64,000 bases of DNA, from positions 1-64,000 of the forward strand of contig NZ_JANLGY010000001.1 of assembly GCF_024653915.1 (NCBI RefSeq), written 5' to 3'. Below the pieces are notes generated by a model, which was not told where the DNA came from, did no database searches, and saw only the letters and a program-made list of their open reading frames with translations. Both the position numbers and the translations under genes were made by a program. The DNA comes from Sulfuricaulis sp. GTDB taxonomy: Bacteria; Pseudomonadota; Gammaproteobacteria; Acidiferrobacterales; Sulfurifustaceae. The number at the start of each line of letters is the position of its first letter. The stretch's first letter is position 1. Below, piece after piece: positions 17,820-35,250 of the stretch.

Positions 17820-20465
17820 ATGCAGCAGACTGTGACGACCGCGCCGTACTGCAACCCCTTCTGGGTCAAGATTTTCCCGTTCCTGCGCTGGTGGCCGATG
17901 GTCACACGCGCGACCGTCAAGACCGATTTCATCGCCGGCCTGACCGGCGCCGTCGTGGTCCTGCCGCAGGGCGTCGCCTTCGCCATGATCGCCGGGCTGC
18001 CGCCGGTCTACGGCCTGTACACCGCCATGGTCCCGGCCATCATTGCCGGCCTGTTCGGCTCCTCGCGCCATCTCATTTCCGGCCCCACCACCGCGATCTC
18101 GATCGTGGTGTTCGCGGCGGTTTCAAAATTCGCCGAGCCCGGCAGCGCCAAGTTTATCCAGCTGGCGCTGACGCTCACCTTTCTCGCCGGGGTGTATCAG
18201 CTGGTGCTCGGCCTGGCGCGCATGGGCGCGCTGGTCAACTTCATCTCGCACTCGGTGGTGGTCGGCTTCACCGCCGGCGCGGCGGTGCTGATCGCCACCA
18301 GCCAGCTCAAGCACTATTTCGGCATGCACATCCCCTCGGGGGAGTCGTTTCTGCACACCTGGCGCGACCTGATCGCGCAGCTGCCCGAAACCAACCTGTA
18401 CGTGACCGGCATCGCGACCCTGACCCTGGCCACCCTGATCGTGCTCATGTGGTTCAAGCCGCGCTGGCCGGTGATGCTGATCGGCATGGTGCTCGGCAGC
18501 CTGGCCGCGGCCTTCGCCGGCGGCGAGAGCGAGGGCATCAAGCTGGTCGGCAAGCTGCCGTCGGAACTGCCGCCGCTCAGCATGCCGGACCTGCATCTGG
18601 CCGCGCTCAAGCAGCTCGGCAGCGCCGCGCTCGCCGTGGCCATGCTCGGTCTGGTGGAGGCGGTGTCGATCGCGCGTTCGGTGGCCTCGAAATCCGGCCA
18701 GCGCATCAATGGCAACCAGGAGTTCATCGGGCAGGGCCTGGCCAACGCCGTCGGCAGCTTTTTCTCGAGCTACGCCTCTTCCGGCTCCTTCACCCGCAGC
18801 GGCCTGAATTACACCGCCGGCGCGGTCACCCCGCTGTCGGCGGTCTTCGCCGCGATATCGCTGGCGCTGATCGTGCTGCTGGTCGCGCCCCTGGCCGCGC
18901 ACCTGCCGATCGCCGCCATGGCGGCCGTGCTGGTGGTGGTGGCTTACCGGCTGATCGACTTCCATCACATCAAGACCATCATCTCGACCAGCAAGCGCGA
19001 GACCGCGGTGCTGGCGACCACGTTCTTCGCCACCCTGTTCGTCGAACTCGAGTTCGCGATCTACGTCGGCGTAATGCTGTCGCTGATCATCTACCTGATG
19101 CGCACCGCGCAACCGAGGGTCGCCGTCACGGTACCGGACCCGAATACCCAGCACCGCAATTTCGTCAGCGACGCGAAGCTCCCGGAGTGCCCGCAGCTCA
19201 AGGTCGTCCGTATCGACGGCTCGATCTATTTTGGCGCCGTCGACCATATCGGCGAGCGGATGCACAGCTTCGCCGAGGCCAACCCCGCGCAGAAGCACCT
19301 GCTGGTGGTCGGCACCGGCGTCAACTTCATCGACCTGGCCGGCGCCGAACTGCTGGCGGCAGAGTCGCGCCGGCGGCGCGGACAGGGTGGCGATTTGTAC
19401 CTTGCCAAGATCAAGCCCGAAGCCTGTGAAACACTGCGGCGCGGCGGCTTCCGCGACCTGATCGGCGCTGACAACATCTTCCCCGGCAAAGCCAGCGCCA
19501 TTGCCAATATCTTTCAGCGCCTCGACCACGCGATCTGTGCGCGCTGCGACAAGCGCATTTTTGGCGAATGCGCGCAGGTTCGCCCGATAGCGCCCGGCAC
19601 CGAGGCACCCGCGGCCCCGGAATTCGGCACCCTGCCGCGTGTCGAACGCCTGCTCGTGGCGAGCGATGATTCCGAGTACAGCGCCGGCGCTATCCACGAG
19701 GCCCTGCGCATCGCCAGGAAGAGCGGCGCCCGGGTGCGAGTGATCCACCTGATCCCACGCGCCGATAGCGAGCTGACCACGGGTATCGGGGAGATTCCGG
19801 AACCGCTCCTGGCGCGGGCGCGCACGCATCTCGACGATGTCGAACGCGAGGCGACAGCCGCCGGCGTCGCTTGCGACACTGAAGTCATTTACACGAGCCT
19901 GCGTCTGTATCAGGAGATCGTCAATCAGGCCGACCAGATGAAGGCCGATCTCATCGTCATGGGTCGGCGCGGGCGACGCGGGCTGGCGCGCGTACGTCTC
20001 GGCCAGGCGACCGCCAAGGTGATCGGCCATGCACACTGCGCTGTGCTGGTCATGCCGCGCAACACCGAGATCACCGGACAGCGCCTGGTGCTCGCCACGG
20101 ACGGTTCAGTCTATGCCGATGCCGCCACTTCCATGGCCGGCAGTCTCGCCAAGATATTCGCGGCACCGGTGTCGACATTGTCGGTGACGCTACCGAGCCA
20201 GTCGGACCGGCGCCACGAAGAAGCCCGTGTCGCGGCCAATCGCGCCGCCGCGTTCCTCAGGAGCCACGAGCTCGATGCGGAAGCGGTGGTGTACCACGGC
20301 CGTCCCGACGAGGTCATCGTCGAAACCGCGATTGCGAAAAAGGCTGACCTGATCGTGATCGGCAGCCATGGTCGCACCGGTCTCGATCGCGTCATGCTTG
20401 GCAGCGTCTCCGAACGCGTGATCGACGCCGCCTCGACCGCGGTGCTGGTCGCCAAGCTTTCCTGA
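17820..20465 (+). CDS. SulP-family anion transporter with STAS and two C-terminal UspA domains
   Basis: 881 residues. The SulP membrane domain (about 15-440) shows PQGVAFAMIAGLPPVYGLY and the QEFIGQGLANAVGSFFSSY block. A STAS domain follows (about 455-560), then a Cys motif CARCDKRIFGEC near 572, and two universal-stress-protein domains (about 602-745 and 750-881). The second USP has the full ATP-binding pattern GSHGRTGLDRVMLGS; the first has Gln where Ser/Thr is expected (GRRGRRGLARVRLGQ). SulP members move sulfate, bicarbonate or other anions by proton or sodium symport; the substrate here is not decided by sequence. The USP pair suggests nucleotide-dependent control. Confidence 0.88.
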   Translation: MQQTVTTAPYCNPFWVKIFPFLRWWPMVTRATVKTDFIAGLTGAVVVLPQGVAFAMIAGLPPVYGLYTAMVPAIIAGLFGSSRHLISGPTTAISIVVFAAVSKFAEPGSAKFIQLALTLTFLAGVYQLVLGLARMGALVNFISHSVVVGFTAGAAVLIATSQLKHYFGMHIPSGESFLHTWRDLIAQLPETNLYVTGIATLTLATLIVLMWFKPRWPVMLIGMVLGSLAAAFAGGESEGIKLVGKLPSELPPLSMPDLHLAALKQLGSAALAVAMLGLVEAVSIARSVASKSGQRINGNQEFIGQGLANAVGSFFSSYASSGSFTRSGLNYTAGAVTPLSAVFAAISLALIVLLVAPLAAHLPIAAMAAVLVVVAYRLIDFHHIKTIISTSKRETAVLATTFFATLFVELEFAIYVGVMLSLIIYLMRTAQPRVAVTVPDPNTQHRNFVSDAKLPECPQLKVVRIDGSIYFGAVDHIGERMHSFAEANPAQKHLLVVGTGVNFIDLAGAELLAAESRRRRGQGGDLYLAKIKPEACETLRRGGFRDLIGADNIFPGKASAIANIFQRLDHAICARCDKRIFGECAQVRPIAPGTEAPAAPEFGTLPRVERLLVASDDSEYSAGAIHEALRIARKSGARVRVIHLIPRADSELTTGIGEIPEPLLARARTHLDDVEREATAAGVACDTEVIYTSLRLYQEIVNQADQMKADLIVMGRRGRRGLARVRLGQATAKVIGHAHCAVLVMPRNTEITGQRLVLATDGSVYADAATSMAGSLAKIFAAPVSTLSVTLPSQSDRRHEEARVAANRAAAFLRSHELDAEAVVYHGRPDEVIVETAIAKKADLIVIGSHGRTGLDRVMLGSVSERVIDAASTAVLVAKLS

Positions 20466-20847: not shown

Positions 20848-20912
20848 TGCAGCACGGGCAACCGGATGACAATAATCAAGGAATAACTTGCCGCACGAAA
20901 TAAGGGGCTGAC

Positions 20913-21152: not shown

Positions 21153-21161
21153 GGAAGCGGC

Positions 21162-23111
21162 GTGGATCTGGCAACGGCAACCAATTTCATTCCGCTCAAC
21201 GCGCTCGACGTAACCTATCTTCTAGTCGTCGGTTTCATCGGCGGCCTGGTCAGCGGTTTCATCGGATCCGGCGGCGCCTTCGTGCTCACGCCGGCCATGA
21301 TGAGCATGGGCGTGCCCGGCATCGTCGCGGTGGCCTCCAACATGTGCCACAAGTTCCCCAAGGCCCTGGTCGGCGCCATCAAGCGCGCCAAGTACGGTCA
21401 GGTGGACGTGAAGCTCGGGCTCGTGGTCGGCACCTCGGCCGAGGCCGGGGTGCTCTATGGAGCGCACATCCAGCAAATGATTCATGACAGCTTCGGCGAT
21501 GCCGGTTCGAACCTGTATGTCAGCCTCGCCTTCGTCGTCTCTCTTGGCGTCATAGGCAGCTACGTGCTGTGGGACGCATTGAAAATGCGCCGCGACACCG
21601 GCGACGAACCGGAAAAGGTCGCGCGTCTCGCCCGCTGGGTCCAGTCGATCCATATCCCTGGCACGATGGTTTACTTCAAGAGCCTCAATGCCCGCGTCTC
21701 GGTCCTGTTTACCATCCCGCTTGGATTCGCCACCGGCATGCTCGCGGCGACCATCGCCGTAGGCGGCTTTATAGGTGTCCCGGCCATGCACTACGTGCTC
21801 GGGGCGCCCGCGCTCATGGCCTCCGCCACCGAACTGGTAACCGCCTTCGTCATGGGCGTAGGCGGCACGATGAAGTTTTCCTGGAGCGGGCTGGTGGATA
21901 TACGCCTCGCCATGATCATTCTTGCCGGGTCCCTGTTCGGCATCCAGCTCGGCGCGATCGGCACCACCTATGTCAAGCCGCACATGATCAAGATGGTCAT
22001 GGGCGTGATCATGATACTGGTGCTGGTCTCGCGCGCGATCGCCATCCCCGTCTATCTTTCCGAGCTGGAGCTCATCGAGCCGCTGGCGCCCCATCTGCCC
22101 GGCGCCCTGAGCAACATCAGTTTCGTGGTGCTGATTGGCGCGCTGGCGGCCGGCGCGGCGATCGTATTCGCGGCGCTGTGGAGCGGCATCAGCGCCTCAC
22201 GCCGTGAGGCGGCACTGGCCACCGCAGCGGACGTGGCATTCGCGCCGGACACGGTGGCAGCTCCGGCCAGCCCGCAACTGTCACCGGTCGGCCGCTTCGA
22301 GCGATTCCTGCTTGCCTCCGACGGCTCGGAGTACAGCGACGGCGCCGTGCGCGAAGCCCTGCGCATGGCGAGCAAGTGCGGCGCCCGCGTGCGCGCGGTC
22401 AACGTGGTCGCCGGCGGCGACGCCGAACTTTACGCCATGGGTGAACAGCTGATCACCAAGGAGCTGAATTCCGCCCGCGCTTGCCTCGACGATGTGCACC
22501 TGCTGGCATCGTCCGCCGGCGTGGCCTATGAGAGCGAGGCCACCCAGGGCAACCAGGTTTACCAGGAAATCGTCAGTCAGGCGGAAAAAATGCAGGCCGA
22601 TCTTATTATCATGGGCCGGCGTGGGCGCCACGGATTGGCGCGGCTGATGGTCGGTCCAACGACCGTGCGTGTCATCGGCCACGCGCGATGCAATGTGCTT
22701 GTTGTCCCGCGTCTTGCGAAAATCTCCGGACAGCACTTCGTCGTGGCTTCCGACGGTTCACGCTTCGGCGACACCGCCGCGCACACGGCGGCGCGGCTCG
22801 CAAAACTGTACGACTCACAGGTCACCGTGGTCTCGGTCACCCGGCCGGAACACAGCGAAGAGCGGCGTCACGAAGCACGCCAGATCGTGAACCGGCTCAT
22901 TTCCTTCCTGAAGCAGGAAGGAGTCAAGGTGGAAGGCGTCGTCCCGCACGGCCGGCCCGACGAAATGATCGTCAAGACCGCGAACGAAAAAAACGCGGAT
23001 TTGATCATTATCGGCAGTCGTGGACGCACGGGCCTGGAGCGGGTTCTGCTGGGCAACACATCGGAGCGCGTCATCGACCAAACCCAGTGCGCCGTGCTTG
23101 TCGTCAAGTAG
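21162..23111 (+). CDS. TauE/SafE-family anion exporter with two C-terminal UspA domains
   Basis: 649 residues from GTG at 21162 with AGGAAG upstream. The membrane part (about 1-345) has the family features GFIGGLVSGFIGSGGAF and a second half with GFATGMLAATIAVGGFIGVP. TauE/SafE proteins export sulfite, sulfoacetate or related organic or sulfur anions. Two USP domains follow (about 375-505 and 515-649). Their loops are GRRGRHGLARLMVGP and GSRGRTGLERVLLGN, so the Ser/Thr after the last Gly is missing from both. The USP pair closely resembles that of the SulP protein at 17820, suggesting a shared regulatory module. Confidence 0.87.
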   Translation: MDLATATNFIPLNALDVTYLLVVGFIGGLVSGFIGSGGAFVLTPAMMSMGVPGIVAVASNMCHKFPKALVGAIKRAKYGQVDVKLGLVVGTSAEAGVLYGAHIQQMIHDSFGDAGSNLYVSLAFVVSLGVIGSYVLWDALKMRRDTGDEPEKVARLARWVQSIHIPGTMVYFKSLNARVSVLFTIPLGFATGMLAATIAVGGFIGVPAMHYVLGAPALMASATELVTAFVMGVGGTMKFSWSGLVDIRLAMIILAGSLFGIQLGAIGTTYVKPHMIKMVMGVIMILVLVSRAIAIPVYLSELELIEPLAPHLPGALSNISFVVLIGALAAGAAIVFAALWSGISASRREAALATAADVAFAPDTVAAPASPQLSPVGRFERFLLASDGSEYSDGAVREALRMASKCGARVRAVNVVAGGDAELYAMGEQLITKELNSARACLDDVHLLASSAGVAYESEATQGNQVYQEIVSQAEKMQADLIIMGRRGRHGLARLMVGPTTVRVIGHARCNVLVVPRLAKISGQHFVVASDGSRFGDTAAHTAARLAKLYDSQVTVVSVTRPEHSEERRHEARQIVNRLISFLKQEGVKVEGVVPHGRPDEMIVKTANEKNADLIIIGSRGRTGLERVLLGNTSERVIDQTQCAVLVVK

Positions 23112-23183
23112 GCACAGGGCCAAGTGAGCCGGTACCACCGCCTGCCAGCATGTCGACGGACCGCGTGCCGGTGAAAGAATTGC

Positions 23184-25343
23184 ATGATCCATAAATTGCG
23201 ACTCCCGTTCAGTTTGCAACGATTCCTGCCGTTCCTGGCCTGGATCGGCGAGATCCGCAACAGCCAAGTGCTGCGTGCCGACCTGATTGCCGGAATCACC
23301 GTAGCGCTGGTTCTTGTCCCGCAATCCATGGCGTACGCGCAGCTCGCCGGGCTGCCGGCCTATTACGGGCTCTATGCGGCGTTCTTGCCGCCCATGGTCG
23401 CCGCGCTGTTCGGTTCCTCGCGCCAGCTCGCCACCGGCCCGGTCGCCGTGGTGTCGCTGCTCACGGCCGCGGCGCTGCAACCGATCGCGGCAAGCGGCAG
23501 CCCGGGCTACGTGGCTTATGCCATCACCCTGTCGCTGTTCGTCGGCCTGTTTCAGCTCGGCCTGGGACTGCTGCGGCTCGGCGTGGTGGTGAATTTCCTT
23601 TCGCACCCCGTGATCATCGGCTTCACCAATGCCGCCGCGATCATTATCGCCACTTCGCAGCTCGACAAGATATTCGGCGTGCGCGTTGAAAGCGCCGAAC
23701 ATCATTACGAAACCGTGTGGAATACGATAGTAGCCGCCGGCCATCAGATGCACTGGCCGACATTCTTCATCGCTTCGGGCGCGTTCGCCATCATGATTGT
23801 TTTGCGGCGGATCGACCCGCGCATTCCCAACGTGCTCATCGCCGTCGCCGTCAGCACGACACTCTCCTGGATCATCCGCTTTGAGCACATCGAGACGGCC
23901 GATATCGCCCAGTTCGAAAACAAGTCGGTGCAGCTGGTGGTGCGCGACGAAATCGCGCTCACGCGCGAGATTCCGGAGCTCGACAAGGAGATACTCGACG
24001 CGGAGACGCAGTATCGTCAAACGCTCTCCCGGTTCGGCACCGACAACTCACGCACCCTGCTCGCCCAGCACGCCTACGACACGCTGAAGCTCAAGCGCGA
24101 GCGACGCATCAAGAGCGTCAAAACCGATATCGAAGAAATCAAGAAAATCCGTTTCGATCACGTGCCGGGTCCAGGGGACGCACTGGGCCGGTTCTACCTG
24201 CATGGACACGCGCCGCCGGGCGCCGTGGTCGACGGACGGCTGTGGCGCATCCGCAGCGTTGACGGGGAAAAGCTGGTCATGAACGGCGGCGGCAACGTGG
24301 TCGGTAGCATTCCCAGCGGCCTGCCGTCGCTGGCGCTGCCGAAGCTCGACTTCGGCGCCATGTTGCAGCTGCTCTCAGCGGCGATCACCATTTCGCTCAT
24401 CGGCTTCATGGAGGCAATTTCGATCGCCAAGGCCATGGCCACCAAGACGCGCCAGAAACTGGACGCCAACCAGGAACTGATCGGTCAGGGGCTGGCCAAT
24501 ATGGCCGGCAGCCTTGCGCTGAGTTATCCCACTTCCGGTTCATTCTCGCGCTCCGCAGTCAACATCAACGCCGGCGCCGTAACCGGGTTTTCCTCGGTGG
24601 TTACCAGCATCATTGTCATCATCACCCTGCTGTGGCTGACACCGCTGCTGTACCATCTGCCACAGGCGACCCTGGCGGCGGTCATCATGATGGCGGTGGT
24701 TGGCCTGATTAACGTCAAGGCTATTCAACATGCCTGGAAGGCGCAACGTCAGGATGGCGTCGTTGCCGTAGTCACGTTCATGCTGACACTGGCGTTCGCA
24801 CCGCACCTGGACAAAGGCATACTGATTGGCGCCGGCCTCGCCCTGATGCTCTATCTTTACCGCACCATGCAGCCGCGCGTGGCGGTGCTGGCGCGCCACC
24901 CGGATGGGACCCTGCGCGACGCGGAGATGTTCGGCCTCGACACCTGCAAGAACATCACCATGATCCGCTTCGACGGTTCGCTCTATTTCGCCAACACCGG
25001 CTATTTCGAGGACAAGATCCAGGAGCGCGTTGCCACCAAGCCCGAACTCAAATACGTGATCGTGCTGGCTGACGGCATCAATCAGGTAGATGCCACCGGC
25101 GAGGAAATGCTTTCGCATATGAGCGAGCGGCTGCAAGCCGGAGGCATCGAGATCTTGTTCGCTGGCGCGAAAAAACAGGTGCTGGACGTATTCCAGCGCA
25201 CCGGTCTGTATCAACATCTCGGCGCCGAGCGCTTCTTCCGCACGGAAGAGCAGGCGCTGGATCATGTCTGGAAAAAACTCGGCAACAATCACGAAGTGGA
25301 TTGTCCGCTCAATATCGTGTGTCCGGTCGCGCCAGCGAAGTAG
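23184..25343 (+). CDS. SulP-family anion transporter with STAS and a coiled-coil insertion
   Basis: 719 residues. N-terminal SulP half with VPQSMAYAQLAGLPAYYGLY; C-terminal half with QELIGQGLANMAGSLALSY; STAS domain from about residue 589 to the end (IRFDGSLYFANTGYF). Between the two membrane halves, residues about 231-384 form a large polar region with a predicted coiled coil (ELDKEILDAETQYRQ, LKLKRERRIKSVKTDIEEI) where SulP proteins usually have a short loop. There is no USP domain, unlike the first SulP. Substrate may be sulfate or bicarbonate. It follows the TauE gene by 72 bases. Confidence 0.88.
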   Translation: MIHKLRLPFSLQRFLPFLAWIGEIRNSQVLRADLIAGITVALVLVPQSMAYAQLAGLPAYYGLYAAFLPPMVAALFGSSRQLATGPVAVVSLLTAAALQPIAASGSPGYVAYAITLSLFVGLFQLGLGLLRLGVVVNFLSHPVIIGFTNAAAIIIATSQLDKIFGVRVESAEHHYETVWNTIVAAGHQMHWPTFFIASGAFAIMIVLRRIDPRIPNVLIAVAVSTTLSWIIRFEHIETADIAQFENKSVQLVVRDEIALTREIPELDKEILDAETQYRQTLSRFGTDNSRTLLAQHAYDTLKLKRERRIKSVKTDIEEIKKIRFDHVPGPGDALGRFYLHGHAPPGAVVDGRLWRIRSVDGEKLVMNGGGNVVGSIPSGLPSLALPKLDFGAMLQLLSAAITISLIGFMEAISIAKAMATKTRQKLDANQELIGQGLANMAGSLALSYPTSGSFSRSAVNINAGAVTGFSSVVTSIIVIITLLWLTPLLYHLPQATLAAVIMMAVVGLINVKAIQHAWKAQRQDGVVAVVTFMLTLAFAPHLDKGILIGAGLALMLYLYRTMQPRVAVLARHPDGTLRDAEMFGLDTCKNITMIRFDGSLYFANTGYFEDKIQERVATKPELKYVIVLADGINQVDATGEEMLSHMSERLQAGGIEILFAGAKKQVLDVFQRTGLYQHLGAERFFRTEEQALDHVWKKLGNNHEVDCPLNIVCPVAPAK

Positions 25344-25433: not shown

Positions 25434-26729
25434 TTGGGTGACATTTCCACCGGCATTCTGATCGGTGCGCTAGTTTTCCTGGTGTTCCTCTCCGCCTTCT
25501 TCTCGGCTGCCGAGATCGCGATGGTGAGCCTCAACCGCCACCGGCTGCGGCATCTTGCCACCTCTGGCCACCGTGGCGCGCAGATCGCCCAGCGCCTGCT
25601 GTCCCGTCCCGATCGCTTGATCGGCGTGATTCTCCTTGGCAGCAATACAGTCAATGCACTGTTCTCGGCGCTCACCACCGTCACCGTCATTCATCTGTGG
25701 GGCGAGGAAGAAAGCTCGATCGCTATCGCGACCGTTATCATCACGCTGGTCATCCTGATATTCACTGACCTCGCGCCGAAAACACTCGCCGCTCTGCATC
25801 CGGAACGCATCGCCTTCCCCAGCGCCTTCGTGTTGCGGCCGATGCTGTGGCTCATCTACCCGGTGGTGTGGGTTATCAACGGCATGGCCAACGGTCTGTT
25901 GCGGCTCATCGGCGTGCGCGTGCAGGCCCGTTCCGCCGACCAAGTGAGCCCGGAGGAATTGCGCGCCATCATCATGGAAGCCGGCGTGCTGATACCGGAA
26001 TCGCATCAGGACATGCTGCTGGCAATCCTCGACCTGGAAAAGATCACTGTCGACGATGTGATGGTGCCGCGTGGAAAAATCGAAGGCGTCAATCTCGACG
26101 TCGAATGGGACGATATCGTGTCCCAGCTTACCGGCAGCCGCTACACCCGGCTACCGGTTTACCGCGGCAGCCTCGACAACGTCAGCGGCATGATCCACGT
26201 GCGTCGTGTGCTGAACCTGATGCGCGAGGGCAAGCTCGACAAAGAGTCGCTGGAACAGGCCGTCGTTGAGCCCTATTTCATTCCATCGGGCACGACGCTG
26301 ACGACGCAGCTGCTGAACTTCCGGCAGGTTAAACGCCGCGTCGGTCTCGTGGTGGACGAATACGGCGACATCCAGGGGCTGGTCACGCTGGATGAAATCC
26401 TCGAGGAGATCGTCGGTGATTTCACCGCCCACGCCATGGGCAGGATCGAGGACGTCCACCCCCAGAGCGACGGCAGCTACCTTATTCGCGGCACGGTGAG
26501 CCTGCGCGACCTGAACCGCCAGCTCGACTGGAAACTGCCCACCGACGACTCCCGCACCCTCAATGGGCTGATCGTGGAATACCTGGAAGATATCCCCGAG
26601 CCCGGGACCAGCCTGATGATCCACGGCTTCCAGGTGGAAATCCTGCGCACCCGCGGCACTGCCATCGAGATCGCACGCGTGCGACCGGCTGCAAATCTCA
26701 CGGCCGAAACCCCCTCCGCACCTGAATGA
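25434..26729 (+). CDS. corB: CorB/HlyC-CorC family membrane protein (CNNM-type, with CBS pair)
   Basis: 431 residues from TTG at 25434, the only in-frame start, with GAGG about 10 bases upstream. Order: DUF21/CNNM membrane domain (about 5-180, FFSAAEIAMVSLNRHRL, FTDLAPKTLA), CBS pair (about 200-330, VMVPRGKIEGV, VVDEYGDIQGLVT), and CorC_HlyC C-terminal domain (about 345-420). Family members take part in magnesium/cobalt homeostasis. In E. coli the equivalent gene directly follows ypjD; here the transporter island separates the two. Confidence 0.9.
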   Translation: MGDISTGILIGALVFLVFLSAFFSAAEIAMVSLNRHRLRHLATSGHRGAQIAQRLLSRPDRLIGVILLGSNTVNALFSALTTVTVIHLWGEEESSIAIATVIITLVILIFTDLAPKTLAALHPERIAFPSAFVLRPMLWLIYPVVWVINGMANGLLRLIGVRVQARSADQVSPEELRAIIMEAGVLIPESHQDMLLAILDLEKITVDDVMVPRGKIEGVNLDVEWDDIVSQLTGSRYTRLPVYRGSLDNVSGMIHVRRVLNLMREGKLDKESLEQAVVEPYFIPSGTTLTTQLLNFRQVKRRVGLVVDEYGDIQGLVTLDEILEEIVGDFTAHAMGRIEDVHPQSDGSYLIRGTVSLRDLNRQLDWKLPTDDSRTLNGLIVEYLEDIPEPGTSLMIHGFQVEILRTRGTAIEIARVRPAANLTAETPSAPE

Positions 26730-26891: not shown

Positions 26892-28919
26892 TTGTCGCCT
26901 CTAACACTCGCCTATCTGGCCCTCATCAGCGCCCTGGCCTCCGGGATCATCGCGTTGGGAGCGGACCGTTACCCCGCCCTGTTGCGCTATGGCTCATCCA
27001 TTCTGCTCGGCCTGTGCGGTCTGCTGGCGGTCATCACCGGTTTGTGGGCCATGATCGACGAAGCACCCACGAAAGATTTGCTCGCGCTCGGCCTGCCGTG
27101 GCTGAAGTGGCACCTGCGACTGGATGCGCTCTCCGGATTTTTCTTTGGCGTCGTCGGGATACTCGTGTTTGCCGTCAGTCTGTTTGCCCCCGGCTACCTG
27201 CGCGAATATACCCACCGGAAAAACCAAAACGCACTTTCGGTGCTCGGCCTGTTCACGGGTCTGTTCATCCTGGGCATGCTCCTGGTGCTGCTCGCGGACG
27301 ACGCTTTTGTCTTCATGATCTCGTGGGAGTTGATGTCGGTCTCGAGTTATTTTCTGGTCGTGTATCAGCATCAGCACGCCGCCAACCGGCGCGCGGCATT
27401 TCTGTACCTGCTCATGGCGCACATCGGCGGTCTGGCGATACTTCTGGGTTTCGGCGTGCTCGCCGGTTTTGGCGGCGGGTTTACTTTCGGTGCCATGCGC
27501 GCGGCGGAACTTTCCGCCACCTGGGCCTCGATCGCGTTCGCGCTGGCTTTCTTCGGCTTTGGCATGAAGGCCGGCATGGTGCCGCTGCATGCGTGGCTGC
27601 CGGAGGCGCATCCGGTGGCGCCCTCGCATATCTCGGCACTGATGAGCGGCGTCATGCTGAAGGTAGCCATCTACGGACTGATCCGTTTCACCTACGATCT
27701 GATCGGCGATATTCAGTGGCAGTGGGGCTTGGTCATGCTGGTCATCGGTTCGGCATCCACCCTGCTTGGCGTGCTGTACGCGATGCTGCGCAACAATCTC
27801 AAGCGCCTGCTGGCTTACAGCTCGATTGAGAATATCGGCATCATCCTCTCCGGTCTCGGCCTGTCCATGATTTTCATCGGCACCGGCCACAAGATTCTGG
27901 GCGTGATTGGATTGATCGCGGCGCTTTATCACGTCCTCAGCCACGCGCTGTTCAAGGGCCTGTTGTTTCTGGGCGCCGGCGCCATCGCGCATGCCACGCA
28001 TGAATACGATCTCAATAACATGGGCGGCCTGATCCGGCGCATGCCGCAGACGTCGGTCTTTTTCCTGATTGGGTGCATGTCCATTGCCGGCATACCATTG
28101 CTCAATGGCTTCGTCTCGGAATGGCTGACGTTCCAGACCGCCTTGCAGGCACCGGTGCTCGAGAGCGGCGTGCTACGCAGCATCATCCCGGTGGCGGCGG
28201 CGGTGCTGGCGCTGTCGGCCGCGCTCGCGGCCGCCTGTTTCGTCAAGGTCTACGGCGTCGCCTTCCTGGGGCAGGCGCGCAGCCGCCACGCGGCGCGGGC
28301 GCGCGAGGTTGATTTCGGCATGCGCGCCGCCATGGGGTTGCTCGCTTTCTTGTGCGTGGTTTTCGGAATTTTTCCCTCGACGGTGATCAGTATTATCGAT
28401 GCGGTTCCCAACCTGCTTCTGGGGGCCGGGCCTCCCAGCGCCACGGCGCAGGGCTGGTTGTGGCTCACGCCGATTTCGCCCAAGGTGGCTTCCTACTCCG
28501 CGCCGCTGGTGTTCGTGGCCATCATTATATTTGCGTTGATCAGTTATCTGGTGCTGCGCCGGCGCGCGGTGGACATCCGGCGCGGTCCCGCCTGGGACTG
28601 CGGTTTCGGCTCGCTCAACTCGCGCATGCAGTATACCGGCACCGCCTTTTCCATGCCGATCCAGCGCATCTTCGCGCCGGTCTGGGACTTGAAAGAGGAA
28701 ATCGAGGAAACGAAAAATTCCGCGCAACCATTGCGCACCGAGGGCATGCGCCATCAGATGCAGGCGCTGGACCGGTCCTGGTCGCGCGTCTATGAGCCGA
28801 TTGGCCGCCTCGTGCTGCTGGCGGCGCGCCGCATCGGCCGCATCCAGACCGGCAGCATTCACACCTATCTCGCGTATTCCTTCTTTACGCTGATCCTGCT
28901 GTTGTGGGTGGTGACATGA
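26892..28919 (+). CDS. hyfB: Hydrogenase-4 component B / NuoL-like proton-pumping subunit
   Basis: 675 residues, matching the usual HyfB length, from TTG at 26892. A multi-pass antiporter-type (Mrp/NuoL/M/N) protein with the conserved GFGMKAGMVPLHAWLPEAHP block, LLAYSSIENIG and LYHVLSHALFKG, i.e. the Lys and Glu/His residues of the proton channel. The C-terminal part (about 560-640) has WDCGFGSLNSRMQYTG, typical of HyfB/HycC rather than NuoL. First gene of a tight operon (ATGA overlap with the next). The subunit would translocate protons across the inner membrane. Confidence 0.92.
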   Translation: MSPLTLAYLALISALASGIIALGADRYPALLRYGSSILLGLCGLLAVITGLWAMIDEAPTKDLLALGLPWLKWHLRLDALSGFFFGVVGILVFAVSLFAPGYLREYTHRKNQNALSVLGLFTGLFILGMLLVLLADDAFVFMISWELMSVSSYFLVVYQHQHAANRRAAFLYLLMAHIGGLAILLGFGVLAGFGGGFTFGAMRAAELSATWASIAFALAFFGFGMKAGMVPLHAWLPEAHPVAPSHISALMSGVMLKVAIYGLIRFTYDLIGDIQWQWGLVMLVIGSASTLLGVLYAMLRNNLKRLLAYSSIENIGIILSGLGLSMIFIGTGHKILGVIGLIAALYHVLSHALFKGLLFLGAGAIAHATHEYDLNNMGGLIRRMPQTSVFFLIGCMSIAGIPLLNGFVSEWLTFQTALQAPVLESGVLRSIIPVAAAVLALSAALAAACFVKVYGVAFLGQARSRHAARAREVDFGMRAAMGLLAFLCVVFGIFPSTVISIIDAVPNLLLGAGPPSATAQGWLWLTPISPKVASYSAPLVFVAIIIFALISYLVLRRRAVDIRRGPAWDCGFGSLNSRMQYTGTAFSMPIQRIFAPVWDLKEEIEETKNSAQPLRTEGMRHQMQALDRSWSRVYEPIGRLVLLAARRIGRIQTGSIHTYLAYSFFTLILLLWVVT

Positions 28920-29863
28920 TTAGCTGGCTGCTGGCACTTGCCCAAACGCTTTTGTTCATCGCCATGGCGCCGTTCCTGCTTGGCTGGATCAAGCGCGTCA
29001 AATGCCACATGCAGAACCGCGCGGCGCCGTCGCTGTGGCAGCCCTACCGCGACCTCGCCAAACTGTTCCGCAAGCACGTGGTGATGGCGGAGCAGGCCTC
29101 GTGGATCTTCCGCGCCACGCCCTACATCGTGTTCGGCGCCACCGTGCTCTGCGCCGCCGTGGTGCCGCTGGTGGCGGTGAACCTGCCAACGGCTGCCATT
29201 GCCGACGTCATTGTGCTGGTGGCTTTCTTTTCGCTGGCGCGCTTTTTCACGGCGCTGGCCGGCATGGACGTCGGCACCGCCTTTGGTGGCATGGGCTCCT
29301 CGCGTGACATGATGATTGGCGCGCTCGCCGAACCTGTCTTGCTGATGGCGGTGTTCACGATGGCGATGACGGCCTCCACCACCAACCTGTCGGAGGCCAC
29401 GACGTACACGTTGAACAGCGGATTGGTCCTGCGGCCTTCGTATATCTTCGCGATGCTGGGGCTGATGATGGTGGCGGTGGCGGAAACCGGGCGCGTGCCG
29501 GTGGACAACCCGGCCACGCACCTGGAGCTGACCATGGTGCATGAGGCCATGATCCTGGAATACAGCGGCCGCCATCTGGCGCTGATCGAATGGGCCGGCC
29601 AGATCAAGCTGATGATTTACATGGTGCTCATTGCCAATATCTTTTTCCCCTGGGGCATCGCCACTGAGTTGGAGGCGAACGACCTTGCCGTGGGCCTGGT
29701 CGCCATCGCCGGGAAGCTCGTATTGCTCGGCGTCGTGCTCGTTACCTGGGAAACCGTGATGGCCAAGATGCGTTTGTTCCGCGTACCACAGTTTCTGGGC
29801 TTCGCGTTCCTGCTGAGCCTGCTCGGCATGCTGACGCACGTTGTGTTAGAGACGGGAGGCTGA
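28916..29863 (+). CDS. hyfC: Hydrogenase-4 component C / NuoH-like membrane subunit
   Basis: 315 residues from ATG at 28916 in an ATGA overlap with hyfB; an in-frame GTG 12 bases earlier is less likely. About eight membrane segments, with the family block GRVPVDNPATHLELTMVHEAM holding the acidic residues that line the quinone or electron-transfer interface in NuoH/HyfC. LWQPYRDLAKLFRKH near residue 45 is also typical. It anchors the hydrophilic HyfG/HyfI-like module to the membrane. Confidence 0.92.
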   Translation: MISWLLALAQTLLFIAMAPFLLGWIKRVKCHMQNRAAPSLWQPYRDLAKLFRKHVVMAEQASWIFRATPYIVFGATVLCAAVVPLVAVNLPTAAIADVIVLVAFFSLARFFTALAGMDVGTAFGGMGSSRDMMIGALAEPVLLMAVFTMAMTASTTNLSEATTYTLNSGLVLRPSYIFAMLGLMMVAVAETGRVPVDNPATHLELTMVHEAMILEYSGRHLALIEWAGQIKLMIYMVLIANIFFPWGIATELEANDLAVGLVAIAGKLVLLGVVLVTWETVMAKMRLFRVPQFLGFAFLLSLLGMLTHVVLETGG

Positions 29864-29864
29864 T

Positions 29865-30542
29865 ATGGATTTTACGCAACTCAGTCTCTACGATCAGGCG
29901 ATTCTGCTGTTCGCGGCGCTCATTCTTTTCACGTCATTTATCATGCTGGCGCAGCCGCGCATCGTGCCGTTGATTCATGCATTTGCCTGGCAGGGCGTGT
30001 TGCTCGCCGTTACGACGACGCTCGTGGCCTACGCCACGGATCACCCGCATCTCTACATTTCGGCCGGCATGACCTTCGCGCTCAAGGCCCTGTTGATTCC
30101 CTGGATGCTGCACCGGCTCGCGGTCCGGCTCAAGATTCATCGCGATATCGAGGCCGTGACGTATCCGTCCCTGACGCTGCTGGCCGGCGCCAGCCTCGTC
30201 GTCTTCAGCTATTACGTCGCGATCCCCATCGTGCAGCTCTCGGCGCTGGTGGCGCGCAATGCCATCGCCATCAGCATCGCCATCATTCTGCTCGGCATGC
30301 TGATGATGATCACGCGCAAGAAGGCGATCTCCCAGGTGGTCGGCTTCATGTCTATCGAAAACGGATTGTTCTTTGCCGCGGTGGTGTCGACCTACGGTAT
30401 GCCGATGGTGGTCGAACTGGGCGTCGCCTTCGACGTGCTGGTAGCCGCGATTCTCTTTGGCGTGTTCTTCTTCCAGATGCGCGAGTCCATCGATTCGCTC
30501 GACGTGGACCGGCTTAACCGGCTGCGGGAGGGGGACGAATGA
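29865..30542 (+). CDS. hyfE: Hydrogenase-4 component E-like membrane subunit
   Basis: 225 residues, GGGAGG before ATG at 29865. Seven or so membrane segments; the NuoK-like C-terminal part contains GFMSIENGLFFAA with the conserved membrane Glu, and the tail FFFQMRESIDSLDVDRLNRL is typical of HyfE. HyfE is found in Hyf-type but not Hyc-type complexes, so the operon belongs to the larger antiporter-rich class. Overlaps the next gene by ATGA. Confidence 0.9.
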   Translation: MDFTQLSLYDQAILLFAALILFTSFIMLAQPRIVPLIHAFAWQGVLLAVTTTLVAYATDHPHLYISAGMTFALKALLIPWMLHRLAVRLKIHRDIEAVTYPSLTLLAGASLVVFSYYVAIPIVQLSALVARNAIAISIAIILLGMLMMITRKKAISQVVGFMSIENGLFFAAVVSTYGMPMVVELGVAFDVLVAAILFGVFFFQMRESIDSLDVDRLNRLREGDE

Positions 30543-32005
30543 CGGCGGTGTGGCTGATCCTGCTGATTCCTCTTGTCGGCATCGTCTTGATGGCGCTCAT
30601 TGGCCATACCCGCGTGGCCGGCTGGTTCAACGTCACCATGTCCGCCGTGAGTTTTGTGGTTTCGGTGTGGCTGGCGCTGATCGTGTACGCGGATGGGCCG
30701 CTGCTGTCCCCGAGCCGCATGCTTTATATCGACGCTTTCAATGTTTACCTTGTCACGCTCACGGCCTTCGTGGGACTGACCACGGCGATCTTCTCGCGTC
30801 CCTACATGCAGCACGAAGTTGAAACGCGACAGATCAGCAAGGGCCGCATGCGGTTGTATCACTCCATGTACCAGGGCTTCATGTTCGCCATGCTGGCGGC
30901 GCTCACGACTAATAATGTCGGCATCCTGTGGGTGGCGATGGAGGGGGCAACGCTGGCCACCGTGTTACTCGTCTCACTTTACCGCACCCCGGAAGCAGTG
31001 GAGGCCGCCTGGAAGTATTTCATACTCTGCGGTGTCGGCATTGCCCAGGCGCTGTTCGGCACGGTGCTGCTGTTTTTCGCGGCAGAGCGTGTCGTGACCG
31101 TGCGCGATGACGCACTGCTATGGAATGTGTTGTACAGCTCCGCCGCGCAGCTGGAGCCGACGGTGCTGACACTGTCGTTTGTGTTCCTGCTCGTGGGCTA
31201 CGGTACCAAGGTGGGCCTGGTGCCGCTCCACAACTGGCTGCCGGACGCGCACTCCGAGGGCCCCACGCCGATGTCGGCAATTCTTTCCGGATTGCTGCTC
31301 AATGTCGCGCTGTACGCGCTGGTGCGCGTGAAAATGATCGTTGACGGTTCGCTGCAAAACCATCTGGCGGGATACTTGATGATGGCCTTCGGCCTGCTGT
31401 CGTTCACGGTCGCGTGCCTGTTCCTGCATCGCCAGCGCGACATCAAGCGCATGTTCAGCTATTCGTCCATCGAGCACATGGGATTGATGACTTTCGCTTT
31501 TGGTATCGGCGGACCGATCGCCACGTTCGGAGCGTTGCTGCACATGACGGTGCACTCGCTTACCAAGTCCGCCATTTTCGTCACGGTTGGTCACGCGGCC
31601 CAGATTGCCGGCACCCAGTCCATTGAAAAAATCCGCGGGCTGATCCGCACTCAGCCTACCGTCGGCTGGGGGTTGTTGATCGGCACCATGGCCATCGCCG
31701 GGTTTCCGCCGTTTGGAGTGTTTACCAGCGAATTCCTCGTGCTCGTCGCCACCATGAAATCCTGGCCGTGGCTGACCGTGCCGCTGCTCGTGGGGCTGGC
31801 GGTGGCATTCGCCGGTTTGTTCCGGCACATCCATCCGATGGTGTACGGCGATCAGCCGGAAGGCCAGGTGCCGGTGAAGGCCAACATGTTGCCGGTGATG
31901 ATCCAGCTCGGGCTGGTGCTCTGGCTGGGCATCGCCATTCCCGTGTTTCTGTCGAAATGGTTTGAGCAGGCCACGGTGCTGATTTCCGGGAGTTCACCGC
32001 TATGA
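30539..32005 (+). CDS. hyfF: Hydrogenase-4 component F-like proton-pumping subunit
   Basis: 488 residues, slightly shorter than E. coli HyfF. Second NuoL/M/N-type antiporter of the operon: GYGTKVGLVPLHNWLPDAHS, KYFILCGVGIAQALFG and FSYSSIEHMGLMTFAFG are the conserved channel blocks. With HyfB it gives at least two proton-translocating subunits. There is no HyfD gene, so the set is reduced compared with E. coli Hyf. Coupled by overlaps on both sides (ATGA with hyfE and with hyfG). Confidence 0.92.
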   Translation: MTAVWLILLIPLVGIVLMALIGHTRVAGWFNVTMSAVSFVVSVWLALIVYADGPLLSPSRMLYIDAFNVYLVTLTAFVGLTTAIFSRPYMQHEVETRQISKGRMRLYHSMYQGFMFAMLAALTTNNVGILWVAMEGATLATVLLVSLYRTPEAVEAAWKYFILCGVGIAQALFGTVLLFFAAERVVTVRDDALLWNVLYSSAAQLEPTVLTLSFVFLLVGYGTKVGLVPLHNWLPDAHSEGPTPMSAILSGLLLNVALYALVRVKMIVDGSLQNHLAGYLMMAFGLLSFTVACLFLHRQRDIKRMFSYSSIEHMGLMTFAFGIGGPIATFGALLHMTVHSLTKSAIFVTVGHAAQIAGTQSIEKIRGLIRTQPTVGWGLLIGTMAIAGFPPFGVFTSEFLVLVATMKSWPWLTVPLLVGLAVAFAGLFRHIHPMVYGDQPEGQVPVKANMLPVMIQLGLVLWLGIAIPVFLSKWFEQATVLISGSSPL

Positions 32006-33585
32006 CTGCCGACTGGCTGACTGCTTTTCTCGGCAGGCTCACGACGCGGGAGATTCAGGCGCAGGAGGAGCCGGCGGCCGGTTTGGCACCGGCTCACCTG
32101 TTGACCGTCCAAGCCGATGACTGGGGACAATTTGCCCATGAGGCTAAAAACTGGGATTGCCGCTGGGTGGCGGCCTGGGGCGAGGACAGCGGGGATGACC
32201 TCATCGCCAATGCCTGTTTTGAAAAAGACGGCACCTATCTGGTGGCGCGCACGCACGTCAAGCGCGCGACTCCCATTTTGCCCTCGCACACGCCTTATTT
32301 TCTGGCGGCCGATCGCCCCGAGCGCCACATGCAGGACATGTTTGGGATTGCCTTCATGGATCATCCGGATCCGCGCCGTTGGACGCGGCACCGGGCGTGG
32401 AAGGAGTCCGAGTATCCGCTACGCAAGAATTTTCCCGCGGCAGGAAATCCGCTTGCCCAGACACCCCCGAACGACAACTACCGCTTCCTTTTCGCGCACG
32501 GCAGCGGTGTGTACGAGATTCCCGTTGGCCCGGTGCACGCGGGCATCATCGAGCCGGGACATTTCCGTTTTCAGGCCGTGGGCGAGACCGTGCTCAACCT
32601 GGAAGAGCGGCTGGGCTATGTGCACAAAGGTATCGAGAAAATCGCGGAAGGACGCGACGCCAAGGGATTGGCGCGTCTCGCGGGACGCGTTTCCGGTGAC
32701 TCCACCGTGGCGCACGCCTGGGCCGCCTGCATGGCGATGGAAAAGGCGGCAGGCATCGAAGTGCCGCCGCGGGCGCTGGCGCTGCGCGCCATCATGGCCG
32801 AGCGTGAGCGCGTGGCCAATCATCTGGGCGACATCGGTGCGATTTGCAACGACGTTTCATTTGCCTTTGCCTTTTACCAGTTCGGACGCTTGCGCGAAGT
32901 CTGGCAGCGCGTATCGCGCGAGACCTTCGGTCATCGCTTCATGATGGACCGTATTGTTCCGGGAGGCGTGCTTTCGGATCTTGACGATCAGGCGTCGGGA
33001 TCGATGCAAAAGCAGATGGTATCTCTGAAAAAAGAACTCGATGGCCTGTATAACATCATTGACGACTTGCCCTCGCTCGAAGACCGGCTCGATACCACCG
33101 GACACCTCAGCCCGGAAACCGCCAAGGCCTTCGGGGCGCTGGGCTACGTGGGACGCGCCAGCGGCATACCGTACGACGTGCGCAAGGATGCGCCGTATGC
33201 GCCCTACGACCGTTTGAGCGTCGAGGTGCCGGTATTTCAAGACGGTGACGTCGCCGCGCGTGTCAAGGTGCGGGCAGAGGAAATCCTGGCGTCATTCAAG
33301 CTGATTGAAACACTGATCGAATATTTGCCCCCCGGGTCTGTACGCGCTGACTGGAAACCTGCGCCGGCGGGCGCCGAAGGCCTGGGATTCACTGAGGGTT
33401 TCCGTGGTGAAATTCTTGCTTACGTGCGCTTCGGCGAAAACGGACAGATCGCGCGCTACTTCCCGCGCGATACGAGCTGGCTGACCTGGCCGACGCTCGA
33501 GAAGCTGATACGCGACAACATCGTCCCGGATTTTCCGGTATGCAACAAATCCGTGAACGGCTCTTATTCTGGACACGATTTATAG
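32002..33585 (+). CDS. hyfG: HyfG-like NuoC-NuoD fusion large subunit lacking Ni-Fe cysteines
   Basis: 527 residues. The N-terminal NuoC-like part (to about 165) has FLAADRPERHMQDMFGIAF and HPDPRRW. The C-terminal NuoD/hydrogenase-large-subunit part starts near 175 (GPVHAGIIEPGHFRF, LEERLGYVHKGIEK). The first Ni-Fe motif R-x-C-G-x-C is R229-V-S231-G-D-S234, both Cys replaced by Ser. The C-terminus reads DFPVCNKSVNGSYSGHDL in place of DPCxxC. The subunit therefore cannot bind a normal Ni-Fe centre and should not be called a hydrogenase. Such complexes are known as energy-converting-hydrogenase-related (Ehr); their electron donors are largely undefined. Confidence 0.9.
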   Translation: MTADWLTAFLGRLTTREIQAQEEPAAGLAPAHLLTVQADDWGQFAHEAKNWDCRWVAAWGEDSGDDLIANACFEKDGTYLVARTHVKRATPILPSHTPYFLAADRPERHMQDMFGIAFMDHPDPRRWTRHRAWKESEYPLRKNFPAAGNPLAQTPPNDNYRFLFAHGSGVYEIPVGPVHAGIIEPGHFRFQAVGETVLNLEERLGYVHKGIEKIAEGRDAKGLARLAGRVSGDSTVAHAWAACMAMEKAAGIEVPPRALALRAIMAERERVANHLGDIGAICNDVSFAFAFYQFGRLREVWQRVSRETFGHRFMMDRIVPGGVLSDLDDQASGSMQKQMVSLKKELDGLYNIIDDLPSLEDRLDTTGHLSPETAKAFGALGYVGRASGIPYDVRKDAPYAPYDRLSVEVPVFQDGDVAARVKVRAEEILASFKLIETLIEYLPPGSVRADWKPAPAGAEGLGFTEGFRGEILAYVRFGENGQIARYFPRDTSWLTWPTLEKLIRDNIVPDFPVCNKSVNGSYSGHDL

Positions 33586-33588
33586 ATC

Positions 33589-34113
33589 ATGCTGCGTATA
33601 CTTGGAAAAATTCAACGTATCGGCATCGTCACCGAGCCTCTGCCGAAAATTGACGAGCCCGCGCTCGAAGAGGTGGGTGCGCAGATCAAGGCAAAGATCG
33701 GCGAGATGTTCAGCGGCAGCCTGGCGATCCGTCAGGTGGACGCCGGATCGTGCAATGGCTGTGAGCTGGAGATCCACGCGTTGAACAATCCTTATTATGG
33801 TATCGAGCGTTTCGGTGTGCATTTCGTCGCCAGCCCGCGCCATGCCGACATGCTGCTCGTGACCGGGCCGGTGTCGCGCCACATGGAGGCGGCGCTGCGC
33901 CGTACTTATGATGCCACGCCGGAGCCCAAGCTCGTGATTGCCGTCGGCGAATGCGGCGCCAATGGCGGTGAATTTGGCGTGAGCTATGCTTCGTGCGGCG
34001 CGGTGTCGAACGTCATTCCGGTGGATGCGGTCATCCGTGGCTGCCCGCCGACACCACTGGATCTGATGCGCGGGATACTACAAGCCGTCGGGGAACTGCC
34101 TGCCCTCAAATGA
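33589..34113 (+). CDS. hyfI: HyfI/NuoB-like subunit with N2-type [4Fe-4S] site
   Basis: 174 residues. Cysteine pattern C55-x2-C58 (SCNGCELE), C122 (GECGANGG), C152 (RGCPPTP) is the proximal (N2) cluster set of NuoB and small hydrogenase subunits. It starts 3 bases after hyfG. The electron route from this cluster would normally lead to quinone or Ni-Fe; here the partner has no Ni-Fe site. No ferredoxin-type (HyfH/NuoI or HyfA) subunit is encoded nearby, so the electron input is unknown. Confidence 0.92.
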   Translation: MLRILGKIQRIGIVTEPLPKIDEPALEEVGAQIKAKIGEMFSGSLAIRQVDAGSCNGCELEIHALNNPYYGIERFGVHFVASPRHADMLLVTGPVSRHMEAALRRTYDATPEPKLVIAVGECGANGGEFGVSYASCGAVSNVIPVDAVIRGCPPTPLDLMRGILQAVGELPALK

Positions 34114-34188
34114 TTCTGCGATCCATAGGTTCTGCTGCGGGACGGGCCGCCCTTGCCGTTCCGGGGTGATGCCCGTATAAAGCTTTCA

Positions 34189-35250
34189 ATGGATACCCAC
34201 AATAAACCCATCGCGCAGCGCATCGAATGGCTGATGGAGCATGCGCACCGGCACGCGGAGGCCTTTACCAGTTCCGAGGCCTTTCTTGCCCGGCAACGCT
34301 ATCTGGCGCAGCACACGTCGGCGGTGGCGGCGCTCAAGTGCATGGATGGGCGGATAAATCTTTCTGTTGCCACCCATACGCCGCTTGGCATCATCCAGCC
34401 TTTTCGCAATCTCGGTGGAATGTTCGATCTCGGTTGGCCCCACCTGGGCGAGGTACTCGCCAGTTATGTGCATGACAAGGTCGCCACCGGGCGCCGCGTG
34501 CTGCTGCTCATCACTTATCACTATTCGAAAAGCGACAAACAGCGGGGCTGCGCCGGTTTCAACTTCGACACCGAAGCCGCGCGTGCACATACTTATGCCA
34601 TCAAGCGTCAGGTCGAGCATGTCTTCGGCGCCAATCACGACACGGTCTATCCGATCGTGTGCGGCTTCGAAACCGACGAGGACGCGCTGGTGCTGCACGG
34701 CACCAACGGCGAGCCGATGGATGTGTCACGTCTTGCCGCACGCGACCAGGAGGGTTTGCGCCCGGCGCTGGAAAAAATATTCCCGGATATGCCGAGCCAG
34801 GTGCGGTTCGATCTGGAGCCACTGGTGCTCGGCAACCAGGCGCGTATCGCCGAGGTGCGCAAGCTATCGCGCACGCTGGATGTGGAACACCGCGAGTGGA
34901 TGATCTGCGTCGGGCGCGGCTTCGATTTTTTGCACATGCCCAACCTCGCGCTGATCATTGGCCCTTACAGCCCGAATCTTGCCGAGCCGATCAGCATTGC
35001 CGGCGGCATTATCGAGAACAACATGCGCGCGAGGCGGATACCCGACGACGGTTTCCTGCTGCTGGCCTCGGTGCCCTATGCCGAAATCGGCGTGGACCGC
35101 GCGCGTGCCGAACTGAAATCGCGTTTTCTTTCGAAGTTCGCCGCCGATGTCATCCGCAGCGGACATCCGTCGCTCGCGGCCAAGATGCAGGTGCGCACCG
35201 CCGTGCTTGATTGGCGTTCTCGTACTCTGGAGACTATCAACGCAGAATAG
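34189..35250 (+). CDS. Beta-carbonic-anhydrase-like zinc protein (possibly CsoSCA-related)
   Basis: 353 residues from ATG at 34189, 75 bases after hyfI. It has a Cys-x-Asp-x-Arg motif (C51-M-D53-G-R55) followed by PLGIIQPFRNLGG, as in beta-carbonic anhydrases. The second half of the zinc site would be H111 and C121 (HYSKSDKQRGC), ten residues apart rather than the usual three; carboxysomal CsoSCA also has a widely spaced His/Cys pair. No signal peptide, so it is cytoplasmic. Same strand and close spacing place it with the Hyf-like operon. Activity as carbonic anhydrase is an inference from these residues. Confidence 0.6.
   Translation: MDTHNKPIAQRIEWLMEHAHRHAEAFTSSEAFLARQRYLAQHTSAVAALKCMDGRINLSVATHTPLGIIQPFRNLGGMFDLGWPHLGEVLASYVHDKVATGRRVLLLITYHYSKSDKQRGCAGFNFDTEAARAHTYAIKRQVEHVFGANHDTVYPIVCGFETDEDALVLHGTNGEPMDVSRLAARDQEGLRPALEKIFPDMPSQVRFDLEPLVLGNQARIAEVRKLSRTLDVEHREWMICVGRGFDFLHMPNLALIIGPYSPNLAEPISIAGGIIENNMRARRIPDDGFLLLASVPYAEIGVDRARAELKSRFLSKFAADVIRSGHPSLAAKMQVRTAVLDWRSRTLETINAE

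Follow-up and report, generated by a model that had tools for sequence, protein, structure and literature searches.

A nickel-less hyfBCEFGI operon followed by a gene for a CsoSCA-like carbonic anhydrase in Sulfuricaulis sp.

The hyfBCEFGI operon and its large subunit

A stretch of 64,000 nucleotides from Sulfuricaulis sp. (contig NZ_JANLGY010000001.1, positions 1 to 64,000), herein called the window, carries the six-gene operon hyfB-hyfC-hyfE-hyfF-hyfG-hyfI between positions 26892 and 34113. The gene under study is the fifth, an open reading frame (ORF) for 527 amino acids that encodes a HyfG-like fused NuoC+NuoD large subunit. Three adjacent gene pairs of the operon overlap by 4-16 bases, and hyfF overlaps both of its neighbours by 4 bases. 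A gene for a CsoSCA-like carbonic anhydrase follows hyfI. All features are listed in Table 1.

Pfam analysis of the HyfG-like protein identified the complex I 30-kDa and 49-kDa subunits, together with part of the NiFe hydrogenase family. Its closest solved structure by sequence is HycE of the Escherichia coli formate hydrogenlyase (7z0s, E 3e-68), and the AlphaFold model (pLDDT 83.5) has the same protein as its top PDB match (7z0s_E, E 3.2e-34, TM 0.87). In group 4 [NiFe] hydrogenases the Ni-ligand motifs are RxCGxC and DPCxxC, and both are present in the aligned E. coli HyfG and HycE. As the first-pass annotation of this DNA had claimed, both cysteines of the first motif are replaced by serine in the window, where R229-V-S-G-D-S234 stands against RVCGIC of HyfG and HycE. 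That annotation had also taken DFPVC-NKS as the replaced second motif, and here the alignment corrects it: the true counterpart of SLDPCYSC is S517-V-N-G-S-Y-S-G524, and DFPVC-NKS sits just upstream. C514 of DFPVC was considered as a replacement Ni ligand and rejected, as it is out of register and unconserved (DFPLINKS in the sister clade).

The alignment with HyfG and HycE, which the first-pass annotation had named as the check for alternative Ni-ligating cysteines, turned up none in the window or in 79 rows of the HyfG-like clade. These rows are ORFs above 100 bits; two of them, L125 and L230, are identical, being the same contig. Ni-ligand cysteines number zero in 60 rows and one in 19, and no row has two or more. 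A relic single cysteine at the first Ni-ligand position is seen in 17 of the 79 rows. The former Ni-Fe pocket holds the invariant polar residues R229, D233, N515, K516, S517, and N519; together with Y522 they are found in 24/24 rows of subset A2 and in at least 93% of the 79 rows. The C-terminus also differs. In E. coli the maturation protease cleaves after the Arg of TDR, and HyfG and HycE run about 30 residues past TDR, whereas the HyfG-like protein ends in ...SGHDL.

In complex I the quinone head group is held by two residues of NuoD, its second His and the Tyr. Both are lost in the HyfG clade, with Ile in place of the His in 79/79 rows (I183 in the window) and Gly (69 rows) or Ala (10 rows) in place of the Tyr. 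As judged from this alignment, the two classic head-group residues give no support to a quinone role for the HyfG-like protein.

The claim that all four cluster cysteines persist in the neighbouring small subunit was borne out: C55, C58, C122, and C152 of HyfI are each found in 75/75 family rows and also in E. coli HyfI and NuoB. In three f34 genomes (G032, G177, and G284) hyfI sits away from the other operon genes and is still present; a first impression of loss was discarded when a copy 71-73% identical was located elsewhere. The operon of G315, with split genes, one internal stop, and no hyfI match, looks like a decaying copy. Conservation extends to charged residues in the membrane subunits, each set being kept in at least 93% of the rows compared: E146, K226, K304, H351, K355, and K452 of HyfB (66 rows), E135, K224, K303, H335, and H339 of HyfF (76 rows), and acidic residues of HyfC including D101, D122, E143, E208, E214, E219, and E283 (70 rows). 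HyfE reached 85 bits against the NCBIfam hydrogenase 4 membrane subunit, below the cut-off.

Several components of hydrogenase-4 and complex I were searched for. No homologues of HyfA, HyfD, HyfH, or HyfJ were detected in hyfBCEFGI operons (window neighbours by Pfam, related loci by phmmer), and HyfH/HyfA-like matches were likewise missing from the BCEFGI loci. A gene for a maturation protease was not seen, with no HyfJ/HycI-like protein among the Pfam-examined neighbours and no HyfJ by phmmer. None of the complex I electron-entry subunits NuoE/F/G/I was found by Pfam among ten window neighbours. Gene calls in the neighbourhoods were scripted longest-ORF calls, and an absent match is defined by the phmmer cut-offs.

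Table 1 Features of the window around the HyfG-like gene
Feature	Position	Strand	Evidence
SulP-STAS-Usp protein, farther neighbour	17820..20465	+	PF00916 336.5 bits, PF00582, PF01740
TauE/SafE permease with two Usp domains	21162..23111	+	PF01925 119.9 bits, PF00582 178.4 bits
SulP-family anion permease with STAS	23184..25343	+	TIGR00815 461.9 bits (cut-off 380)
CNNM/CorC-type protein	25434..26729	+	PF01595; adjoins hyf also in L231-L233, L236, L237, L239-L242
hyfB, NuoL/M-like antiporter subunit	26892..28919	+	NCBIfam PRK06521 838.8 bits (cut-off 667); Pfam PF00361
hyfC, NuoH-like membrane subunit	28904..29863	+	Pfam PF00146 133 bits; overlaps hyfB
hyfE, NuoK-like membrane subunit	29865..30542	+	PF00420 21.8 bits, below cut-off; conserved operon position
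hyfF, second antiporter-like subunit	30539..32005	+	NCBIfam PRK06458.1-5 769 bits (cut-off 543)
hyfG-like fused NuoC+NuoD large subunit	32002..33585	+	four Ni-Fe cysteines replaced: S231, S234, S521, G524
hyfI, NuoB-like small subunit, one [4Fe-4S] site	33589..34113	+	PF01058 100 bits; C55, C58, C122, C152
CsoSCA-like carbonic anhydrase (predicted)	34153..35250	+	TIGR02701 33 bits (cut-off 241); catalytic residues; model match

The window operon is almost certainly an Ehr-type complex and not a hydrogenase, as the first-pass annotation had proposed. The name Ehr reportedly stands, in Coppi 2005 and Marreiros 2013, for energy-converting hydrogenase-related complexes. The features of this type are found in the window, namely group-4-like large and small subunits, antiporter-like subunits, and lost Ni ligands. 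Those of a group 4 [NiFe] hydrogenase, four Ni cysteines and a C-terminal extension, are not. The maturation factor HypD is needed to make the NiFe centre. In a sample of 369 genomes of the class, 44 carry the Ehr-type large subunit, counted at 42% identity or more and E 1e-95 or less after removal of G302 (131 residues) and of weaker matches to other families and complex I. HypD is absent from 24 of the 44 and present in 20, including the window's own genome. Because HypD is present there, a real [NiFe] hydrogenase may be encoded elsewhere in that genome.

The family is widely spread. Ehr matches were obtained in 37 of 57 genomes of the order and in 83 plasmid records, and are common on plasmids of rhizobia, Azospirillum, Cupriavidus, and Burkholderia. 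No partner gene family recurs beside Ehr across most loci. A second, more distant nickel-less family (L074-L082) has the gene order C-E-F-G-I-B, with two copies in some genomes; the Ni ligands are missing in this set as well. The first-pass annotation had expected automatic annotation to call the complex hydrogenase-4. This holds for hyfB and hyfF, which are labelled 'hydrogenase 4' in public plasmid records and pass the NCBIfam cut-offs, but not for the large subunit, which fails the HyfG cut-off and usually carries the label 'NADH-quinone oxidoreductase subunit C'.

The carbonic anhydrase gene and its neighbourhoods

The gene after hyfI, on which the first-pass annotation was silent, is the new element of this locus. 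The ATG at 34189, at which its homologues start, is the more likely start codon. In CsoSCA the zinc is held by Cys, His, and Cys, and an Asp-Arg pair completes the set of residues; the counterparts C63, D65, R67, H123, and C133 are invariant in 6/6 sequences. The predicted model matches CsoSCA structures with E from 3.3e-15 to 4.4e-14. With the fold, the Zn ligands, and the Asp-Arg pair all present in model and alignment, the neighbour is identified as a putative short CsoSCA-type carbonic anhydrase. It lies on the same strand as hyfI, with no terminator-like site between the two on the + strand, and the arrangement of hyf and carbonic anhydrase is intact in G000, G082, and G411.

The window's genome has RuBisCO with CbbX. 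A bacterial microcompartment (BMC) shell gene was not found in it, so there is no carboxysome context, and DabA (PF10070) had no match there. Full-length relatives of the carbonic anhydrase occur in 6 of the 369 class genomes, including the window's own, and 5 of these 6 are without a BMC shell gene. The family had no match on plasmids. No published link of hydrogenase-4 or Ehr with carbonic anhydrase, DAB, or inorganic carbon was found in the open-licence literature.

Nine genomes of the window's genus were compared. Ehr is present in seven and was not found in G409 and G413; DabA is present in G413 only. Four genomes (G000, G082, G411, and G413) carry a full-length carbonic anhydrase gene and G414 a broken one; in the other four no copy was found. 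The gene order in G411 is hyfBCEFGI, carbonic anhydrase, pyrC, and nudix. The corresponding order in G413 is DAB cluster, carbonic anhydrase (87% identical), purK-like gene, pyrC, and nudix, the last two being identified through shared clusters. The window's own genome also carries a carbonic anhydrase remnant of 40 residues, 80% identical, just upstream of pyrC and nudix on the RuBisCO contig (L112:8233-8352; C5:179232-179351). The nudix gene beside this remnant and pyrC is of the Nudix/ThiE type. These gene orders are most simply read as an alternation of Ehr and DAB next to a single carbonic anhydrase.

A named scan retrieved 363 carbonic anhydrase relatives, and the neighbourhoods of the best 80 were analyzed. 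These 80 loci are not independent, many being from Candidatus Thiodiazotropha and Accumulibacter, and only 44 of the 80 stretches exceed 18 kb; L122 is the locus of G413, and L142 that of G350. DAB genes adjoin the carbonic anhydrase in 22 of the 80 loci, 17 with DabA and 5 with antiporter-like neighbours only within the stretch. The DAB genes were sought with a query from L107 (Candidatus Thiodiazotropha endolucinida), where a protein of 1123 residues matches DabA (PF10070, 763 bits). The DAB clusters of L107, L132, L138, L142, and others consist of DabA and four NuoL/M-like genes and are larger than the two-gene DAB. Ehr adjoins the carbonic anhydrase in 3 of the 80 loci, against a rough expectation of 0.067. 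SulP occurs in 4 (one also an Ehr locus), and RuBisCO in 2, one with DabA and one with Ehr.

The first of the three Ehr loci (L125) is from Sulfuricaulis sp. S40-5, of the window's genus. In the second (L127), from a betaproteobacterial metagenome-assembled genome (MAG), Ehr and carbonic anhydrase are convergent and less than 20 bases apart, with SulP upstream of hyfB. In the third (L170), from a Thiobacillus MAG, they are about 2.4 kb apart with RuBisCO nearby. L127 and L170 belong to another HyfG clade than the window in a quick tree built only from E. coli controls and relatives including MAGs, in which the E. coli rows form long branches. The pairing of Ehr with carbonic anhydrase therefore arose at least twice. 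A phosphoenolpyruvate carboxykinase gene was observed near the Ehr operon of a Bradyrhizobium plasmid (L272:16292-17890), and another near a carbonic anhydrase of the window's family (L108:11428-13008, genome G014).

Upstream of the CNNM gene, three permease genes stand in a row from 17820 to 25343, in the order SulP-STAS-Usp, TauE-Usp, and SulP-STAS. SulP is also near hyf in L231, L232, L236, L046, and L127. In the unrelated G177 (L046), SulP and TauE likewise adjoin hyfF-hyfG.

A possible role in inorganic-carbon supply and its rivals

On the complex I/hydrogenase-4 chassis, HyfB, HyfC, HyfE, and HyfF would form the membrane arm, and HyfG and HyfI the cytoplasmic foot with one [4Fe-4S] cluster, in a complex that has neither nickel nor a NuoI/HyfH-like subunit for electron entry. 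Gene content, residues, predicted folds, gene neighbourhoods, and the alternation of Ehr and DAB beside the carbonic anhydrase are read from the data, whereas we infer the assembly of this complex, its proton translocation, and any link to CO2. The complex would work with the adjoining CsoSCA-like carbonic anhydrase and energise inorganic-carbon supply in the window's lineage. Ion translocation by the membrane arm would be coupled, directly or via charge and pH, to maintaining CO2 in its hydrated form, bicarbonate. The role proposed for Ehr and carbonic anhydrase would be the job done by DAB in other species. This is the best overall explanation of the locus and is offered tentatively; a CO2 role of Ehr in the window's lineage is likewise a possible, tentative assignment. 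In its favour are the carbonic anhydrase gene directly after hyfI, the DAB and Ehr genes beside relatives of that gene, the pairing in separate HyfG clades, the Ehr and DAB gene orders within the genus, and a genome that has RuBisCO and CbbX but neither a carboxysome shell gene nor DabA. A broader claim, in which Ehr generally is an energy-coupled inorganic-carbon system whose emptied metal pocket handles CO2/bicarbonate or powers a docked carbonic anhydrase, and which swaps with DAB at the same locus, is unlikely.

Several observations weigh against the role in inorganic-carbon supply. Over the class sample, RuBisCO is found in 25 of the 44 Ehr carriers (2 of them weak hits) and in 162 of the 325 other genomes (p 0.42), and DabA in 11/44 and 71/325, respectively (p 0.70), with no exclusion. 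The CO2 claim is limited because Ehr tracks neither RuBisCO nor DabA overall, and the ideas that Ehr follows autotrophy or excludes DAB are unsupported over this sample; the closer 30 carriers show a weak excess of RuBisCO (21/30, p 0.035, uncorrected for kinship). In the order, the carbonic anhydrase is found in 5 of the 57 genomes, so most Ehr loci are without it, and none is annotated near Ehr on plasmids of rhizobia and Burkholderia. Conversely, DAB, Ehr, SulP, and RuBisCO are all missing from the stretch in 52 of the 80 carbonic anhydrase loci. Two genomes of the genus, G410 and G412, carry Ehr but no detectable carbonic anhydrase; the pairing is therefore not obligatory. The carbonic anhydrase of G414 (L235:8536-9284) is without the stretch that holds the five catalytic residues, with hyf intact as far as the contig reaches; a faulty assembly may account for this break. 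The strict conservation of the [4Fe-4S] cysteines points to a redox step that is not known from DAB.

About equally likely is a generic redox-driven proton pump, in which a soluble donor would pass electrons through the single [4Fe-4S] cluster to a small acceptor in the remodelled pocket and the membrane arm would pump protons, the carbonic anhydrase being a neighbour without a shared function. The cluster cysteines in 75/75 rows, the kept charged residues of the antiporter-like and NuoH-like subunits, and the retention of hyfI in the three genomes where it has left the operon are all consistent with such a pump, as are the wide spread that includes plasmids and the missing link to RuBisCO. 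A formate link for Ehr has also been proposed in accessible parts of the literature (PMC6349859, PMC7894505). However, no NuoI/HyfH-type subunit was found in the operon, the pocket has neither quinone residues nor Ni ligands, and the pump leaves unexplained both the carbonic anhydrase beside two Ehr clades and the alternation of Ehr and DAB at one locus.

A sulfur-linked relative of archaeal MBS is quite improbable. Its substrate near the cluster would be sulfane sulfur or sulfite, and sulfur anions would be moved by SulP and TauE permeases; the SulP and TauE genes upstream of hyf in the window and in G177 agree with it, as do several neighbour-gene relatives from records with sulfur-oxidiser names. 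However, HycE is the best match by sequence and fold, far ahead of the MBS-type 6u8y, and the family is common in organisms without known sulfur metabolism. An ion/proton antiporter or pH-homeostasis complex without redox activity, in which the cluster is structural, is at least as improbable. Intact subunits, no entry subunit, no Ni or quinone residues, and the adjoining CNNM and SulP transport genes would suit it, whereas the strict conservation of all four cluster cysteines speaks against it and the invariant polar residues of the pocket suggest a bound substrate. An active hydrogenase with unusual ligands is virtually dismissed: the fold and subunit set resemble hydrogenase-4 and HypD is in the genome, but the protein has 0/4 ligand cysteines, never more than one is found in the 79 rows, the C-terminal extension is missing, and so is HypD in 24/44 carriers.

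The link between Ehr and carbonic anhydrase, with Ehr and DAB trading places in one genus, offers a concrete function that can be tested. If the role in inorganic-carbon supply is true, autotrophs without carboxysomes would have an extra inorganic-carbon system. The link is also a caution against taking hyf genes in metagenomes for hydrogen metabolism, a use exemplified in PMC10696704.

Comparison with known systems

The closest published case is hyfBCEFGI of Acidithiobacillus ferrooxidans, with the same six genes as the window. Its catalytic-subunit sequences were classed as non-hydrogenase by HydDB and a formate role was suggested; no link to carbonic anhydrase or DAB is mentioned in the accessible parts of that report (PMC7735108). 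Because this operon was reported as non-hydrogenase, the core finding here is a fresh member of a type already in print. Ehr complexes in general are described, in the accessible text of three papers, as missing the Ni ligands and having an unknown or unsettled function (PMC6349859, PMC10432482, PMC10284858). The window operon is likewise group-4-like with lost Ni-ligand motifs, and its variant adds the gene for a CsoSCA-like carbonic anhydrase after hyfI. Rv0082-Rv0087 of Mycobacterium tuberculosis is presumably another Ehr relative.

E. coli Hyf and formate hydrogenlyase 1 (FHL-1, Hyc) share with the window the homologues of HyfB, C, E, F, G, and I and the fused NuoC+NuoD large subunit. Their own four Ni cysteines, HyfA, HyfD, HyfH, HyfJ, and the C-terminal extension are all absent from the window.

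To our knowledge, DAB has no [4Fe-4S] subunit. DAB pumps, made of DabA (PF10070) and DabB (DAB2 structure, PMC13144422), share with the window one or more complex-I-type antiporter subunits, and in the loci compared here they lie next to members of the same carbonic anhydrase family. They differ from the window in that the window is without DabA. Cyanobacterial NDH-1MS is tied to ferredoxin oxidation. In this system, as cited in the accessible text of PMC13144422, a complex I chassis is proposed to be coupled to CO2 hydration, which resembles the proposal made here for the window. In contrast to NDH-1MS, neither a ferredoxin-docking subunit nor quinone residues were seen in the window complex. 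Finally, CsoSCA has its fold and its Zn and Asp-Arg residues in common with the predicted carbonic anhydrase of the window, and the window protein is shorter, at about 350 amino acids.

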